This document shows positions 6,487 through 39,798 of a DNA stretch of 64,000 nt, piece by piece. The stretch's first letter is position 1, and every line of letters starts with the position of its first letter. The stretch is from Candidatus Poribacteria bacterium (GTDB taxonomy: Bacteria > Poribacteria > WGA-4E > WGA-3G). The stretch covers positions 62,280 to 126,279 of the forward strand of contig JAPPFM010000058.1 in the NCBI GenBank assembly GCA_028821605.1, written 5' to 3'. Made by a program: the position numbers and the translations under genes. Below the pieces are notes generated by a model. It did not search any database and was not told the DNA's origin. It saw nothing but the letters and a program-made list of their open reading frames with translations.

Positions 6487-7305
6487 TCATTCTGGAACGT
6501 CTACTTTAAACGGATCTATGAGTTCATTTAGTGCCTTCCGCTGTCCGTGGTCGCGGCTTTCAAGTTCGTGGAGAGCCTCTGGGATTTCGTCCTTATGTGC
6601 ATCAAACGGAAGCCATCGAGACGAATCGACGTGATGAAACTGCTTCGCATAGACCCAGCGTAAGAACACCGTCATCCGCGGATAAGCTTCGTGATTCCAC
6701 CGCCGTCCAGCATGCCGCGTGTTCGGCAGAAACACGATGAAGTCACCAGCATTTACTGGGATATTGTGAACTGTCGGTGGTGGATCATCCATCGTGATAT
6801 GTTCTGGATACTGGAAGTTGGATTTGTGGCTTCCCGGAATGCAGGCAAACCCGTTGCCGGGTGGCACATCCACTAACGAAACGGAGAGATTGAAGAAACT
6901 CGCGAAGATTTCATCGTTGGCGACTTGGTATTGGTGGTGTGGACTTCTAAACCACCCTTTATGCCCGCCGTGTAGTTCTAAACCGTCTGCATCTGGATAA
7001 CAGATATTCGCGACGACATCGAAAACTCGCGGGTGGTTCCATGTCAATGCCGTTGCGACGCGCAGGATTTCTGGGTTCAAAATGAGCCGTTGGAACGCTT
7101 CATGCCCGTAATGCATGTTATAGACCCACCACGGTTTTCCCTCCGGTGTGTTGATTCGCATAGGATGCTTGAAATTCGCCTCATCCCATTCGTACCACTC
7201 AAACATCTGCGTCTTCATCAGTTCAACATCTACTTTTGGCACAGCGTTGCGCACGACAAAATAACCGAGCAGGTCAAGGTACCACTTTTCTTCCTGTGTT
7301 AGCAT
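6487..7305 (-). CDS. PhyH-like Fe(II)/2-oxoglutarate enzyme with HxG instead of HxD
   Basis: A 272-residue protein of the phytanoyl-CoA dioxygenase (PhyH) family. The family core SLVDVPPGNGFACIPGSHKSNF is split here as SLVDVPPGNGF and CIPGSHK. The distal iron-binding His is H198 and the 2-oxoglutarate Arg is R210 (YPRMTVF). At the proximal site it has L-H112-G113-G114, aligned with L-H128-R129-D130 in the neighbouring paralogue, so the usual carboxylate ligand is absent. HxG or HxA is the signature of non-haem iron halogenases such as SyrB2 and WelO5, but loss of activity or another ligand is also possible. The start overlaps the stop of the upstream PhyH gene by 7 bp, suggesting translational coupling. 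Confidence 0.85.
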   Translation of the reverse strand: MLTQEEKWYLDLLGYFVVRNAVPKVDVELMKTQMFEWYEWDEANFKHPMRINTPEGKPWWVYNMHYGHEAFQRLILNPEILRVATALTWNHPRVFDVVANICYPDADGLELHGGHKGWFRSPHHQYQVANDEIFASFFNLSVSLVDVPPGNGFACIPGSHKSNFQYPEHITMDDPPPTVHNIPVNAGDFIVFLPNTRHAGRRWNHEAYPRMTVFLRWVYAKQFHHVDSSRWLPFDAHKDEIPEALHELESRDHGQRKALNELIDPFKVDVPE

Positions 7306-8171
7306 AGTTCCTCTCCGTTTTCCAGTTTTTTGAGGATCCGTTTGGCAAATCCCTTTTCGCTGCGTTGGATTGATTCCAACTCGTATTGATCATCAGAAAT
7401 GCAGTGGCGGTGTGCTTCTATGGGTAGGTTATAGTTTTCATTGAAGTAGAAGCTGAATTGATACCGATTGAAGACAACTCGACGCGGATAATCAACCTTC
7501 CAAAATTTTGCGCCGTGCATCAGTCGAGACGAGAAAACGAGACAATCTCCCGCCTTTAGCTCAAAGGTGATGGCGGGTGCCAATTCGTTGTCGATATCAA
7601 TCGTCGTAGGGAATTTGATTCTCAATTTGTGCGTGCCGGGGATACACATGAAACCGTTGTCCTTCGGCACATCAACGAGTGTTATGGCGGTATTGACATA
7701 ATTACTATAGATCTGTCCGTTTCCAGCTTGGTAGTCGTTGTGCGGGTTATGGAACCCGTCCGGAAAGTCAAAACCGCTCGTGTCGCGATGAAGTCTCTCC
7801 TGTTCACCGTCAGAAATGGGGCGTTGCTTCTGTAAGACGAGGGCACAGTTGAAGAGCCGTGGACGGTTCCACATTAAACCCATTACAATCCGCATCACCT
7901 TTTCATTGAGCGATAATCGCTCGAAAATCCGATCACCGTACTGAACATTATTTAGCACGCCGCTATACTGGTCTTGGGTGACATTCACCGGTTCAGGTGC
8001 AGCTTCAGGATTCGCAAACCACCCGTTTGCGATCTCAAGCATCTGTTCAACTTCTGCTGGCGACACCACCTGCCGAAGCACGAGATAACCAAACAGATCG
8101 TAATGCCATTTCTCCTCCTCAGTTAAGGTAGACGGAAGATCAATGGCACTATCTTCACCGCGGATTAACAT
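7299..8171 (-). CDS. PhyH-family dioxygenase
   Basis: A 290-residue PhyH-family Fe(II)/2-oxoglutarate dioxygenase, expected to hydroxylate a small organic substrate with release of succinate and CO2. The complete facial triad is visible: H128-x-D130 (LHRD) and H219 (LMHGAKFW), with R230 (YPRRVVF) for 2-oxoglutarate. The TLVDVPKDNGFMCIPGTHK core matches that of the downstream paralogue. It lies 8 bp after the alpha/beta hydrolase gene and overlaps the next PhyH gene by 7 bp, forming a three-gene unit. The substrate is unknown; this family is greatly expanded in some environmental lineages. Confidence 0.9.
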   Translation of the reverse strand: MLIRGEDSAIDLPSTLTEEEKWHYDLFGYLVLRQVVSPAEVEQMLEIANGWFANPEAAPEPVNVTQDQYSGVLNNVQYGDRIFERLSLNEKVMRIVMGLMWNRPRLFNCALVLQKQRPISDGEQERLHRDTSGFDFPDGFHNPHNDYQAGNGQIYSNYVNTAITLVDVPKDNGFMCIPGTHKLRIKFPTTIDIDNELAPAITFELKAGDCLVFSSRLMHGAKFWKVDYPRRVVFNRYQFSFYFNENYNLPIEAHRHCISDDQYELESIQRSEKGFAKRILKKLENGEELC

Positions 8172-8179
8172 ACTGTCTC

Positions 8180-9049
8180 CTACTCGTTAATTGCATAATC
8201 TACGACAAACTGCCGAAGTGCTGTCTTCACTTCATCGGGTTTCTCTACCCAAGGATAGTGTCCTGATTCGGGAATCAACACAAATGTGCTATGAGATAGT
8301 TTAGCAGCAAACGTCTCTATAAAGTGACAAGGACGAGGGTCGCAGGCACCATGAAGAAAAAGAACCGGCATGGATAGATCGTAAACGGATTGCTGAAATT
8401 TTGGATCTGCGGTGTAATTTTTCCAGTCCGCGCCGACTTTTTCATTCGCTTCATGGCTCACAGGATATTCATCAAAACTTGGAAGATTGTCAACTTGATT
8501 TGGGTCAAATACGTCCGTCTTATTACTTAAAGTGCGAAGTCTGTCTATTATCTGCTCCTCATTAGCCCCTTCAGCACGTTCTCTCTGTGAACGCAGACGT
8601 TGATATTCTTCACGCTCTGATTCGCTCAACGCATTTAACCGATTTTCGCGATATTCGCCATGCCATCGCGGATCAATACCTGTGCCTGCGATGTGAAGAA
8701 CGGCTATCGTCCGTGCTGGAAACCTGACTGCATAAGCCAAAGCAAGGCCGGCTCCCCACGAATGTCCCCCAACAATCCAACGTTCAAAGTTGAAATGCTT
8801 TCTCAATCCTTCTAAATCATTGACAAATGTGGACACATTATAGGGACCTACCGCTTGTGAACGCCCACTTCCACGTTGGTCATACCGAACGACTTGGCAC
8901 ACATCAGAAACCGTGTCAGCGATGGCGGAAAGATAATCGTAACCACCAGGACCGCCGTGACAAAGCACCATCGGTATTCCATTGCCTTGAACCGCTGTCC
9001 AAAGCTGAACACCATTAATCTGAAGTACTTGCTCTTGGGACACTTTCAT
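8180..9049 (-). CDS. Alpha/beta hydrolase, proline iminopeptidase-like
   Basis: A 289-residue alpha/beta-hydrolase-fold enzyme. The HGGPGG oxyanion motif (from H31), the DQRGSGRS motif (from D57) and the nucleophile elbow GGHSWGAG (Ser97) are those of the proline iminopeptidase (S33) group. The acid is probably the Asp in HGACDPRP and the base the His in PESGHYPW near the C-terminus. A variable cap domain (about 125-215) is rich in Glu and Arg. No signal peptide. Members of this group are aminopeptidases or small-ester hydrolases, so peptidase activity is only one option. It is the first gene of a unit with two PhyH genes, which may mean a shared small-molecule pathway. Confidence 0.88.
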   Translation of the reverse strand: MKVSQEQVLQINGVQLWTAVQGNGIPMVLCHGGPGGYDYLSAIADTVSDVCQVVRYDQRGSGRSQAVGPYNVSTFVNDLEGLRKHFNFERWIVGGHSWGAGLALAYAVRFPARTIAVLHIAGTGIDPRWHGEYRENRLNALSESEREEYQRLRSQRERAEGANEEQIIDRLRTLSNKTDVFDPNQVDNLPSFDEYPVSHEANEKVGADWKNYTADPKFQQSVYDLSMPVLFLHGACDPRPCHFIETFAAKLSHSTFVLIPESGHYPWVEKPDEVKTALRQFVVDYAINE

Positions 9050-10137: not shown

Positions 10138-11358
10138 ATGAAGGTAGATCCACAACAACTCATTGATGATGGCTACATTGTGCTACGACAGGTTGTTCCG
10201 CCTGATCAGTTGGAAGCGTTAAGGTCGAATTTTGAAATCCTCGTCGAAAAGCAAAAAGTAGTTTGGGAACGGGAGCGGAAACCGGACGAAAAACCGGGAG
10301 GTATTTGGACAACAAGTGCACAACCGAGGGTGTTTTTCGATGAGGTCGTTGACGCAGCAACTGCCAATACCATCGAGTTTTGTCTGCATGAGAACACGCT
10401 TGGCGTGAGTCAACAACTCATGAGAGCACCCGAGGCAGCGATCACACTGATGGCACTGATGTGTAATCCAGTACAAGACCACGGTCCTGCAAGTTGGCAC
10501 CGCGATATTGATCCAACGGGACAGGCACCGCTAAACGGCATGCAGATGGATTATGTTAAAAACGGACCAGGGTATGTCCAATGGAATATCCCGCTTTACG
10601 ACGATAGCGTGTTTTGGCTTGTACCGAGAAGTTATTGCCGTCCAAATACGCCAGAGGAACATCAACACCTATTGACCCGCGCCCAAGAACCAATGCCGGG
10701 TGGGATCCCGATTGAACTTTCAGCAGGAGATGGGGTTGTCTATAGCCACATGGGTTTGCATTGGGGCAGCAACTATAGCACAAAATTGCGGCGGACTGTT
10801 CATCTTGGCTATCGCGCTTTTGGTGGGGATTCATATCCAATTGTTGACCATTTTTATTGGAATCTGGAATTCACCCAACATCTTCCGGCTGAGGCTCGCA
10901 CCCGATTTGAACATTTTTTCCAATTCCATCAGCAGCAATCCGATGTGATTGAGGCAACCTTTCATGCCATCCGTAACAAGGACGCTGACGGTTTTCAAGA
11001 TGGGTTGGCGAAGTTACACCCGGGTGAAGAGGAACGTATGGTCGCGGTCGTATTCCTCTCAAAGTTGGCGGACAAGGTTCGCAAACTCAAAGACCCTGAA
11101 GTCAGCAAACTTCCCATTGAAGAGCGCATCGGGGAAATCTCCGCACATCGTCTCAATTTCCATCTCTATGAGGATTTCGCGGATCGTTTTTCCGCCGAAG
11201 ATGCCGAAAGTATCTGGCAACGGTTCTCAACGCTATACGAGAAAATCGAAACAGAGATTGCCCGGTCTGTTCCCGACAGAACATCCCGTGTGATGCGCTA
11301 TCACCTGACAAACATGCCAGCGAATTTCGAAGTAGAGGACTTCATTCAGAGCTGGTAG
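10138..11358 (+). CDS. PhyH-family dioxygenase (long form)
   Basis: A 406-residue PhyH-family Fe(II)/2-oxoglutarate dioxygenase. The catalytic core is in residues 1-250. The facial triad is H121-x-D123 (SWHRD) and H208 (GLHWGSNYS), with R219 as the probable 2-oxoglutarate ligand (LRRTVHLGY). The C-terminal 150 residues are a helical extension (about 255-400) not seen in the shorter paralogues, possibly for dimerisation or substrate shielding. It follows the LamG gene by 79 bp and precedes a DUF6807 gene. The substrate is unknown. Confidence 0.9.
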   Translation: MKVDPQQLIDDGYIVLRQVVPPDQLEALRSNFEILVEKQKVVWERERKPDEKPGGIWTTSAQPRVFFDEVVDAATANTIEFCLHENTLGVSQQLMRAPEAAITLMALMCNPVQDHGPASWHRDIDPTGQAPLNGMQMDYVKNGPGYVQWNIPLYDDSVFWLVPRSYCRPNTPEEHQHLLTRAQEPMPGGIPIELSAGDGVVYSHMGLHWGSNYSTKLRRTVHLGYRAFGGDSYPIVDHFYWNLEFTQHLPAEARTRFEHFFQFHQQQSDVIEATFHAIRNKDADGFQDGLAKLHPGEEERMVAVVFLSKLADKVRKLKDPEVSKLPIEERIGEISAHRLNFHLYEDFADRFSAEDAESIWQRFSTLYEKIETEIARSVPDRTSRVMRYHLTNMPANFEVEDFIQSW

Positions 11359-12710: not shown

Positions 12711-13529
12711 TCACTCCGGCCGCTTGCGGTGCTTGACATCCAGTTCGCGAAGGAGTGCCAAAGTATCCTCAAATGACAGTTCACCTGTTGAAGCCGTGTG
12801 TTCGAGGTAGTCACGCGTTTTGTTGTTGAATACACTATAAAAGGCGCGCGCCTCAGGATCCGGATGATCTCGCCAAAGTTCAACAGGTATGATCGAATCC
12901 TCGCTCAAGTACCGACGGTTCGGATGCCCGTAATAGACTTGTACCGTCTTGCGTTCCGCCTGCGTAGGACGGGTCGTAGCGGTATGTAAAACACCGATGT
13001 TGAATAGTATGGCTGTCCCGGCGGGACCGTACAAATCGACAATTCCGCCGCGCGCCAACTGTGCATCTGTTTCGAGAATATCAGCGTCCACCGATTCCGG
13101 TGATAAGGAGAAACAGTGCGTCGTTTCATCAACATCGGTTAGATACAACATCAACTGCATGAACCCGATGCGTAACGGGTGTTCGAGCCAGTGCCTCGGA
13201 CCATCTCGATGCCAGCCGCGATTCAGTTCTCCGTCGTACGGTGCCATGTGTCGGATGCAGACTTCTGAAAAACAAGGGGCATTGCCCATCAGTGTGTGTA
13301 GGCAATCCATGACGATTGGATGCCGAATCACATTGTCGAATTCAGGGGCAGTCAGAAGGGCATCGCAATTCACGGTCTGGTAATGTCCGATACGATACCA
13401 GTGATCTTCAACCTCAGTGCGGTCCCGGTCAAAAGCATGAACAAAATGCTCAACCTCGGCATCGCTCAGAATCTTACCGAGTGAGACATAGCCATTTTCT
13501 TTAAAAAACGCATAATCCGCTGGTTTCAT
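12711..13529 (-). CDS. PhyH-family dioxygenase
   Basis: A 272-residue PhyH-family Fe(II)/2-oxoglutarate dioxygenase. The triad is complete: H107-x-D109 (GWHRDGPRHW) and H182 (GVLHTATTRP), with R193 eleven residues on for 2-oxoglutarate. The QLMLYLTDVDETTHCF strand is typical. It belongs to a different subgroup from the pair at 6487-8171, lacking the VDVPP-GSHK core. The start is an ATG at 13529 preceded by AAGGAGG. It lies convergent to the DUF6807 gene and downstream of the Gfo/Idh/MocA gene, from which it is separated by two REP-like hairpins. The substrate is unknown. Confidence 0.9.
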   Translation of the reverse strand: MKPADYAFFKENGYVSLGKILSDAEVEHFVHAFDRDRTEVEDHWYRIGHYQTVNCDALLTAPEFDNVIRHPIVMDCLHTLMGNAPCFSEVCIRHMAPYDGELNRGWHRDGPRHWLEHPLRIGFMQLMLYLTDVDETTHCFSLSPESVDADILETDAQLARGGIVDLYGPAGTAILFNIGVLHTATTRPTQAERKTVQVYYGHPNRRYLSEDSIIPVELWRDHPDPEARAFYSVFNNKTRDYLEHTASTGELSFEDTLALLRELDVKHRKRPE

Positions 13530-38832: not shown

Positions 38833-39798
38833 CTACCGATAAGGCTCCAGGTCAATCCCCGGATATGCCTGTTCAAGACGGGTAAGGGCTTCCGGTGTAT
38901 AGTAGGCATCGCCAAGGTCGGGCCACCCTAAAACACGTCGCACAGCAGGTGTTGTTTGCGCGACAAATTTCATGTAATTTGGGCTGCCCCAACCGGGCAC
39001 TGGGCGCGTTGTTTTGCACCAATCGTCATTGTCAGCACGGTGGAAGTGGAACCCCATCCATCCACGTTGTCTACGCTTGTTCTCAAACGGTTGTGCCGCG
39101 TGAACCAAGTAACTTGAGCGGAACGACACACTCCCCGCTTTCGCCGTAAGCGGAACCGGATCCGCGAGTTCTTCTTTAAACTCACGCAGATCAGGAATAC
39201 CCATTCCGCCCGCTCTGCCCGGATACTTCGCCCATATTTTATCCAACTGGTTCTGTGAACCTGGACAGACGAGCATCGGCGCGCCGTCCAATTCGATGTC
39301 GTGTACAAAGATAGCGGTCAGAACATATCCGTAGCGTTGCCAATCAGGGTGTGGTGGTAAGGGTGAGTTCGTCGCATTGTCAATGTGGTAACCCTGCCAC
39401 GGATGTTCACTATGACGACTATCGGTGAGGCCTTCGCGAAAGAAGATTTGCCCATAACCGAGCCGAATTTCTTCCGTATCTAACAGCTGCTTTGCAATCG
39501 CTAAATATGCTTCATTTTCAATCAGCTTATCCACGGCTTCCAAGCCCGTCGGGAAATGCACTGCCTTTCCAAAAGGCCCCGCAAGTCGTTGCATATCACT
39601 GTTCTTTTGATATGCACTTTTCAGTGCGTCTGGCTGCAGACCCCATTTCGCTTGATATTCGGTGTAAGTTAATCCATCATAAGCATTCCGTTCAATATCT
39701 TCTAACGCGGGCGCAATTATTTCCGGTGAAAATACGTTGGGCACCACGATGATTCCATCTCGCTCCCATGTTGCCAGCTGTTCCGTTGTCAGTTGCAT
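38833..39798 (-). CDS. PhyH-family dioxygenase
   Basis: A 321-residue PhyH-family Fe(II)/2-oxoglutarate dioxygenase. The start is placed at the ATG at 39798, because GGAGG precedes it on the minus strand and the upstream gene ends only 5 bp before; a frame-open ATG at 39828 would overlap rmlB. The triad is H138-x-D140 (QGYHIDNATN) and H233 (YLVHAAQPF), with an Arg-rich stretch (NKRRQRGW) offering the 2-oxoglutarate Arg. The motif IFVHDIELDGAPMLVCPGSQ is family-typical. It is downstream of an rmlB-like gene, so a sugar-linked substrate is possible. Confidence 0.88.
   Translation of the reverse strand: MQLTTEQLATWERDGIIVVPNVFSPEIIAPALEDIERNAYDGLTYTEYQAKWGLQPDALKSAYQKNSDMQRLAGPFGKAVHFPTGLEAVDKLIENEAYLAIAKQLLDTEEIRLGYGQIFFREGLTDSRHSEHPWQGYHIDNATNSPLPPHPDWQRYGYVLTAIFVHDIELDGAPMLVCPGSQNQLDKIWAKYPGRAGGMGIPDLREFKEELADPVPLTAKAGSVSFRSSYLVHAAQPFENKRRQRGWMGFHFHRADNDDWCKTTRPVPGWGSPNYMKFVAQTTPAVRRVLGWPDLGDAYYTPEALTRLEQAYPGIDLEPYR

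Follow-up and report, generated by a model that had tools for sequence, protein, structure and literature searches.

WelO5 and BesD carry HxA/G in place of HxD/E, and human AspH belongs to another 2-oxoglutarate (2OG) oxygenase family than PhyH. For HygX, the abstract of a 2015 PNAS paper reportedly mentions variation in metal coordination, and we know of no HxD partner paired with this enzyme. PDB titles of HygX structures name iron, Ni together with 2OG, or Ni together with both 2OG and hygromycin B as ligands; a review describes HygX as a non-heme iron, 2OG-dependent oxygenase whose structure is compatible with abstraction of a hydrogen from its substrate (PMC8234114). A high number of PhyH proteins per Poribacteria genome is likewise already on record in the excerpted text of an earlier study (PMC3909097). 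A literature search returned no paper on PhyH proteins without the triad, nor on HygX together with the facial triad.

The window analyzed here, the whole stretch of 64,000 nucleotides, belongs to a Poribacteria MAG (6.0 Mb, 60 contigs), and the source of the gene under study is a bacterial sponge symbiont. Two overlapping PhyH-family genes, called LHGG and HRD below after their motifs, and the gene just upstream of them have the following features:

6487..7305, reverse strand: LHGG gene (272 aa), PhyH-family, a probable Fe(II)/2OG oxygenase lacking the carboxylate of the triad (ORF, PF05721, orthologues)
6964..6972, reverse strand: codons of H112-G113-G114, HxG replacing HxD (sequence, translation, invariant in 31/31)
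6712..6714, reverse strand: codon of the distal His198, second iron ligand by homology (alignment, invariant in 31/31)
6676..6678, reverse strand: codon of Arg210, 2OG-binding Arg by homology (alignment, invariant in 31/31)
7299..8171, reverse strand: HRD gene (290 aa), PhyH paralogue with a complete HxD...H...R (ORF, PF05721, pairing in 37/37 genomes)
7782..7790, reverse strand: codons of H128-R129-D130 of the HRD partner (sequence, translation; HRD in 29/29 partners)
7299..7305, reverse strand: 7-nt overlap ATGCTAA, the LHGG start codon lying within the end of the HRD gene
8180..9049, reverse strand: alpha/beta hydrolase, just upstream of the pair (Pfam, synteny of 31 loci)

Both proteins exceeded the PF05721 (PhyH) gathering cut-off of 22 bits, with scores of 30.3 bits for LHGG (scanned minus its start Met) and 67.2 bits for HRD. 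The residue numbers assigned in the first-pass annotation (H112, G114, H198 and R210; H128, D130, H219 and R230) all proved correct on translation, and its placement of LHGG opposite LHRD, with a distal His and an Arg in both genes, was upheld by an 18-sequence alignment, in which the first His, the distal His, and the Arg are invariant. The canonical PhyH HxD/E...H triad is incomplete in LHGG, which has Gly114 for Asp and keeps both His. The window holds three more PhyH genes (10138-11358, 12711-13529, and 39073-39768, the last being a Pfam match span), all of them HxD. It also holds two adjacent genes (603-1313 and 1386-2177), HAD-type hydrolases by eye, whose C-terminal halves nearly duplicate each other.

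To the extent that LHGG could be followed across loci, its site did not vary: H112, G113, G114, H198, and R210 were invariant in 31 of 31 full-length orthologues (one from the window and 30 from other loci, after dropping L039, which a contig end truncates), so the HxG is neither chance nor a sequencing error. Record titles of the 31 loci with close relatives named Poribacteria in 30 cases and Gammaproteobacteria in one (L034). Values of dN/dS for LHGG ranged from 0.02 to 0.055 across the 26 pairs with an estimable dS; the four most distant pairs were saturated and gave no estimate. Constraint on the HRD partner was similar (0.022-0.059 over 25 pairs, omitting L033-L036), and the HRD motif was present in 29 of 29 partners (omitting L014 and L022). 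The first-pass suggestion that LHGG may have lost catalysis is contradicted by these invariant ligands and strong purifying selection, and because of both, such a loss appears unlikely.

With profiles of LHGG and HRD, we searched 84 genomes from the phylum, many of them draft assemblies, scoring at most 30 and 28 candidates per genome, respectively; the pair threshold was set at E <1e-170, the next matches lying at ∼1e-70 for LHGG and ∼1e-85 for HRD. Strong matches numbered 36 for LHGG, plus one 104-residue match (G077), and 37 for HRD. At these thresholds, 37 genomes had both genes, 47 had neither, and none of the 84 had one alone. In all 37 genomes the two genes were on the same contig and the same strand, and they overlapped by 4 coding nucleotides in 36, with a 52-nt gap in the remaining one (G058). 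The LHGG start codon lay in a stop-containing 7-mer (ATGCTAA, ATGCTGA or GTG forms) at 31 of 31 loci; at L014, the 52-nt case, the 7-mer was present, yet the partner match ended 52 nt earlier. We infer that the overlap couples the translation of HRD and LHGG, and we infer from gene order and co-occurrence that the two proteins act jointly.

The surroundings of the pair were less stable. At L033-L036, three of which are on short contigs, the pair was present and six other window neighbors were not found at identities of at least 45%. The alpha/beta hydrolase at 8180-9049 was matched only piecewise in L017, L018, L019, L023, and L031, where the pair was whole; it is a variable neighbor, fragmented or not found in several relatives, and stands outside the conserved unit. 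Other neighbors of the pair, named by eye only, are an NADH-dehydrogenase-like gene and an MFS-type transporter. Since neighbors change or decay while the pair stays, they give no hint of a substrate. The unusual part of the locus is the co-retention of the pair and not the HxG itself, as a census of the genome's PhyH proteins made clear.

In total, 143 PhyH proteins (PF05721 matches, extracted and aligned) were recovered from the genome, the first domain of a 583-aa fusion described below not being counted as its own row. The carboxylate place was occupied by Asp in 116, Gly in 15, Ala in five, Ser in three, His in three, Val in one, and Glu in none. All 27 non-Asp proteins kept the distal His and the Arg, so carboxylate loss is common here and uncoupled from loss of the other site residues. 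Among the 116 Asp proteins, the Arg was absent from two, and one more was cut by a contig end. The pair C54:73910 and C54:86683, which lack the Arg, are related to each other and have HxD and the distal His, with Ala or Ser at the aligned 2OG place.

A quick phylogeny (FastTree, 158 rows: 142 own-genome and 16 other-genome, one own PhyH fragment of <120 residues being omitted) placed 25 of the 27 non-Asp own-genome proteins in one clade with local support of 96. That clade also took in three own-genome HxD proteins (the window HRD, a relative encoded on contig C55, and a protein reading HAD), and outside it lay two proteins with HxH (C41:158733 and C59:320660). In two careful 58-row trees, built from 44 clade rows and 14 hand-picked HxD outgroup rows with few or more motif columns removed and not covering those two HxH proteins, the split between clade and outgroup was supported at 100/98, and 29 of 55 inner branches were starred in each. 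Also inside the clade (98/99), apart from the HxD outgroup, was a protein of Streptomyces sp. SAT1 that is nearly identical to HygX (257-residue match, E 1e-167); it sat on a long branch joined to another long branch, in a tree of 61 rows, one of which was out of register at the motif His. The first-pass annotation had allowed that LHGG may be common in an uncharacterized PhyH subgroup; the grouping of nearly all the non-Asp proteins, together with this HygX-like protein, bears that out.

The closest subfamily (100/100) holds LHGG, FHGG, FHAS, and HRD groups. Within it the HRD proteins grouped together (97/98 and 100/97), LHGG fell outside them, and the FHGG and FHAS groups lay around. This topology rules out a recent origin of LHGG as a mutated duplicate of its neighbor, since HRD clusters with other HRD proteins. 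A single clade of all HxD rows was likewise rejected (log-likelihood 119 lower, p-AU 2.2e-42), in a test selected only after the first tree had been seen. On these trees, HxG is the usual state of the clade with HRD nested within it, and the neighbor does not appear to be the parental form. Rooted on the outgroup, the distribution of HxD cost three changes (one loss and two regains), against 10 losses without regain. The plainest reading of the nested HRD lineage is that Asp was lost at the base of the clade and was likely regained twice, once by the HRD lineage and once by the HAD protein. The outgroup was all HxD by choice. Since GAY and GGY codons are one base apart, repeated loss is possible too, regain being the more frugal reading.

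Two further groups of relatives were seen alongside. The FHAS subfamily comprises single-copy HxS proteins with a shortened loop after the motif in several Poribacteria genera (L042, L108, L110, L111, L114, L117, and L118). Kinship beyond Poribacteria was sampled via plasmids only: a plasmid search with the LHGG sequence gave no match. On Cupriavidus necator plasmids, N-1 (L188) reads LHHE with a GAG codon and C39 (L189) reads LHHG with a GGC codon; the two are homologues with 78% identity over the tree columns, and the C39 frame ends earlier.

Of solved structures in the PDB, the subfamily profile matched HygX best (E 1.4e-15), followed by EctD (6.8e-11), SnoN, human PhyH, and SyrB2 (4.8e-4, C-terminal part). 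The single LHGG sequence reached HygX at E 0.12 only (phmmer), and another clade member matched it at E 2.2e-12. In the profile alignment the HxD place of HygX itself reads LHGG. A single-chain AlphaFold model of the LHGG protein had a pLDDT of 87.1, its least sure part being the loop 116-122 right after HGG (pLDDT <50). Foldseek with this model placed HygX at ranks 1-14, and VIA-align gave Z scores of 21.7 for FtmOx1, 21.4 for HygX, and 21.3 for OkaE, so that HygX ties with the other two and fold alone cannot single it out. With the HRD model (pLDDT 85.9), Foldseek listed HygX first with SnoN interspersed. By profile searches, HygX is the nearest solved relative found for the LHGG clade.

Two explanations of the missing Asp concern what fills its space. 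If LHGG were a halogenase, chloride or bromide would sit in that space, as happens in SyrB2 or WelO5, and the enzyme would act on a small molecule of the symbiont. The HGG site is strongly selected, HxG/A is the motif used to mine such halogenases, and nucleotide halogenases were found by it among relatives of a known one, as the excerpted texts relate (PMC11186838, PMC12871659); the second of these also warns, in its excerpted text, that HXA/G mining gives false positives (PMC12871659). The clade's occupants of the place (Gly, Ala, Ser, His, and Val) are broader than the Gly/Ala of the mining motif, and SyrB2 was weak and far behind HygX against the subfamily profile. LHGG was not among the genome's 90 matches to TIGR01762 at E ≤10, none of which reached the 226.3-bit cut-off and the best of which (87 bits) is an HxD protein; this search had no positive control, as none of 14 control genomes passed the cut-off. 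When seven proteins (six clade members and the HxE relative from Cupriavidus) were scanned against NCBIfam, only FHAS touched TIGR01762 (E 0.094, first 29 residues), and LHGG matched no family at E ≤0.001, its one weak match being at 0.15. WelO5, BesD, and AdaV were not named among the PDB matches listed, an absence that carries no weight in capped or thresholded lists. A natural HxG...H site can also serve hydroxylation, as AspH does with two iron ligands according to the excerpted text of its report (PMC10947486), and D414G and D414A variants of P4H had, in a source likewise seen in part, no halogenase activity and also no hydroxylase activity (PMC2767507). In this genome the HxG/A mining filter passed 20 of 143 PhyH proteins, all 20 in one clade; since the nearest solved relative found for that clade, HygX, is described as an oxygenase, the bare motif is an unsafe guide for PhyH proteins. 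Halogenation by LHGG, which the first-pass annotation had suggested as a possibility, is therefore not supported by the sequences, which offer nothing positive beyond a motif that by itself makes no chlorinating enzyme, and we hold the explanation to be improbable. Equally doubtful is a 2-His-1-carboxylate site of unusual geometry in which a different acid, for which D107 is the best candidate, extends to the iron. Located five residues N-terminal to H112, D107 is invariant in 31 of 31 orthologues, and in the 18-sequence alignment its place is D/E in the single-copy FHGG group, D in four FHAS rows, and non-acidic in the HRD rows. Against it, the own-genome FHAS protein has Asn there, and no acid is constant in the variable stretch preceding the His across the 28 clade members of this genome. 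As a stand-in carboxylate within the close subfamily, D107 is possible.

The main rival to two live sites is a heterodimer in which LHGG is catalytically silent and serves as an auxiliary subunit that shapes the HRD active site, in the way that TlxI shapes that of TlxJ. The occurrence of the overlapping pair in all 37 genomes, with none of 84 having one gene alone, would follow from such an arrangement; TlxI-J is a heterodimer of 2OG oxygenases of this fold in the excerpted texts (PMC12141560, PMC11880133), and Foldseek listed 7vbq chains at ranks 30 and 43. The clade even contains a pseudo-domain of its own, fused to an HxG domain: a 583-aa two-PhyH-domain fusion (L192 and L054; in the source genome on C56, 107900-109639, reverse strand), which was matched 66 times across 58 of the 84 genomes (E ≤1e-100). 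Among the 20 best-scoring copies, which were those read, domain 1 had its first His replaced by V, G, E, I or T in all 20, and Gln stood at the distal His in the 18 copies where the text pattern matched. Domain 2 read LHDG in 19 of 20 by text pattern, and its distal His pattern matched in 18 of 20. The fusion thus looks like an enzyme joined to its own pseudo-enzyme. This same pattern of decay weighs against silence in LHGG: the clade's real pseudo-domain loses its first His, TlxI is without the 2OG-binding Arg in the excerpted text, and LHGG shows no such decay, R210, both His, and HGG being invariant in 31 of 31. LHGG thus does not look dead, and the silent-subunit explanation, the foremost of the alternatives, is rather unlikely.

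We favor two live sites, working in one complex or in sequence. Most probably, although with only moderate confidence, LHGG is catalytically active as a HygX-type two-His Fe(II)/2OG oxygenase and forms an obligate unit with its HRD paralogue. Judging from the sequences, LHGG presumably binds iron and 2OG, and oxygenation would be expected over halogenation. Iron would be held by H112 and H198 plus 2OG, R210 would anchor the 2OG, and water or substrate would lie near the place of the missing Asp, as in the HygX branch. The LHGG and HRD proteins would form a heteromeric complex, or would catalyze successive steps on the same substrate. Bolder is the proposal of an obligate heteromeric 2OG oxygenase with live HxG and HxD sites, in which the HxD would be derived: the HRD lineage, descending from a non-Asp ancestor, would have regained it before the genes became inseparable; this we offer as a tentative possibility. 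If true, the contribution of the carboxylate could be examined in a natural pair of live sites, one of them with a regained HxD. The clade is a large natural set for studying carboxylate-less iron sites, and the HxG/HxD pair is a compact, cloneable system for asking why both kinds of site are kept side by side.

Compared with the PhyH expansion described for Poribacteria, the locus agrees in PhyH abundance, and the missing carboxylate and the pair are unmentioned in the excerpted text of that study (PMC3909097). SyrB2, as a TIGR01762 enzyme, and AdaV share with LHGG the HxA/G for HxD/E; TIGR01762 enzymes differ from it in that LHGG has no family-level match and the SyrB2 match is weak. AspH, the human aspartate/asparagine hydroxylase, resembles LHGG in its HxG...H with two iron ligands, but acts on EGF-like domains. 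HygX of Streptomyces hygroscopicus (PDB 4xc9, 4xca, 4xcb, and 4zpi) is like LHGG in its LHGG motif, distal His, and PhyH fold, but shares 17-20% identity with it and belongs to hygromycin B biosynthesis. The TlxI-TlxJ system of fungal meroterpenoid formation (7vbq), again from partial texts, is like the present pair in having two paralogues of the same fold, one of them altered, in one cluster and jointly needed; however, TlxI has lost its 2OG-binding Arg, whereas LHGG retains that Arg and both His.
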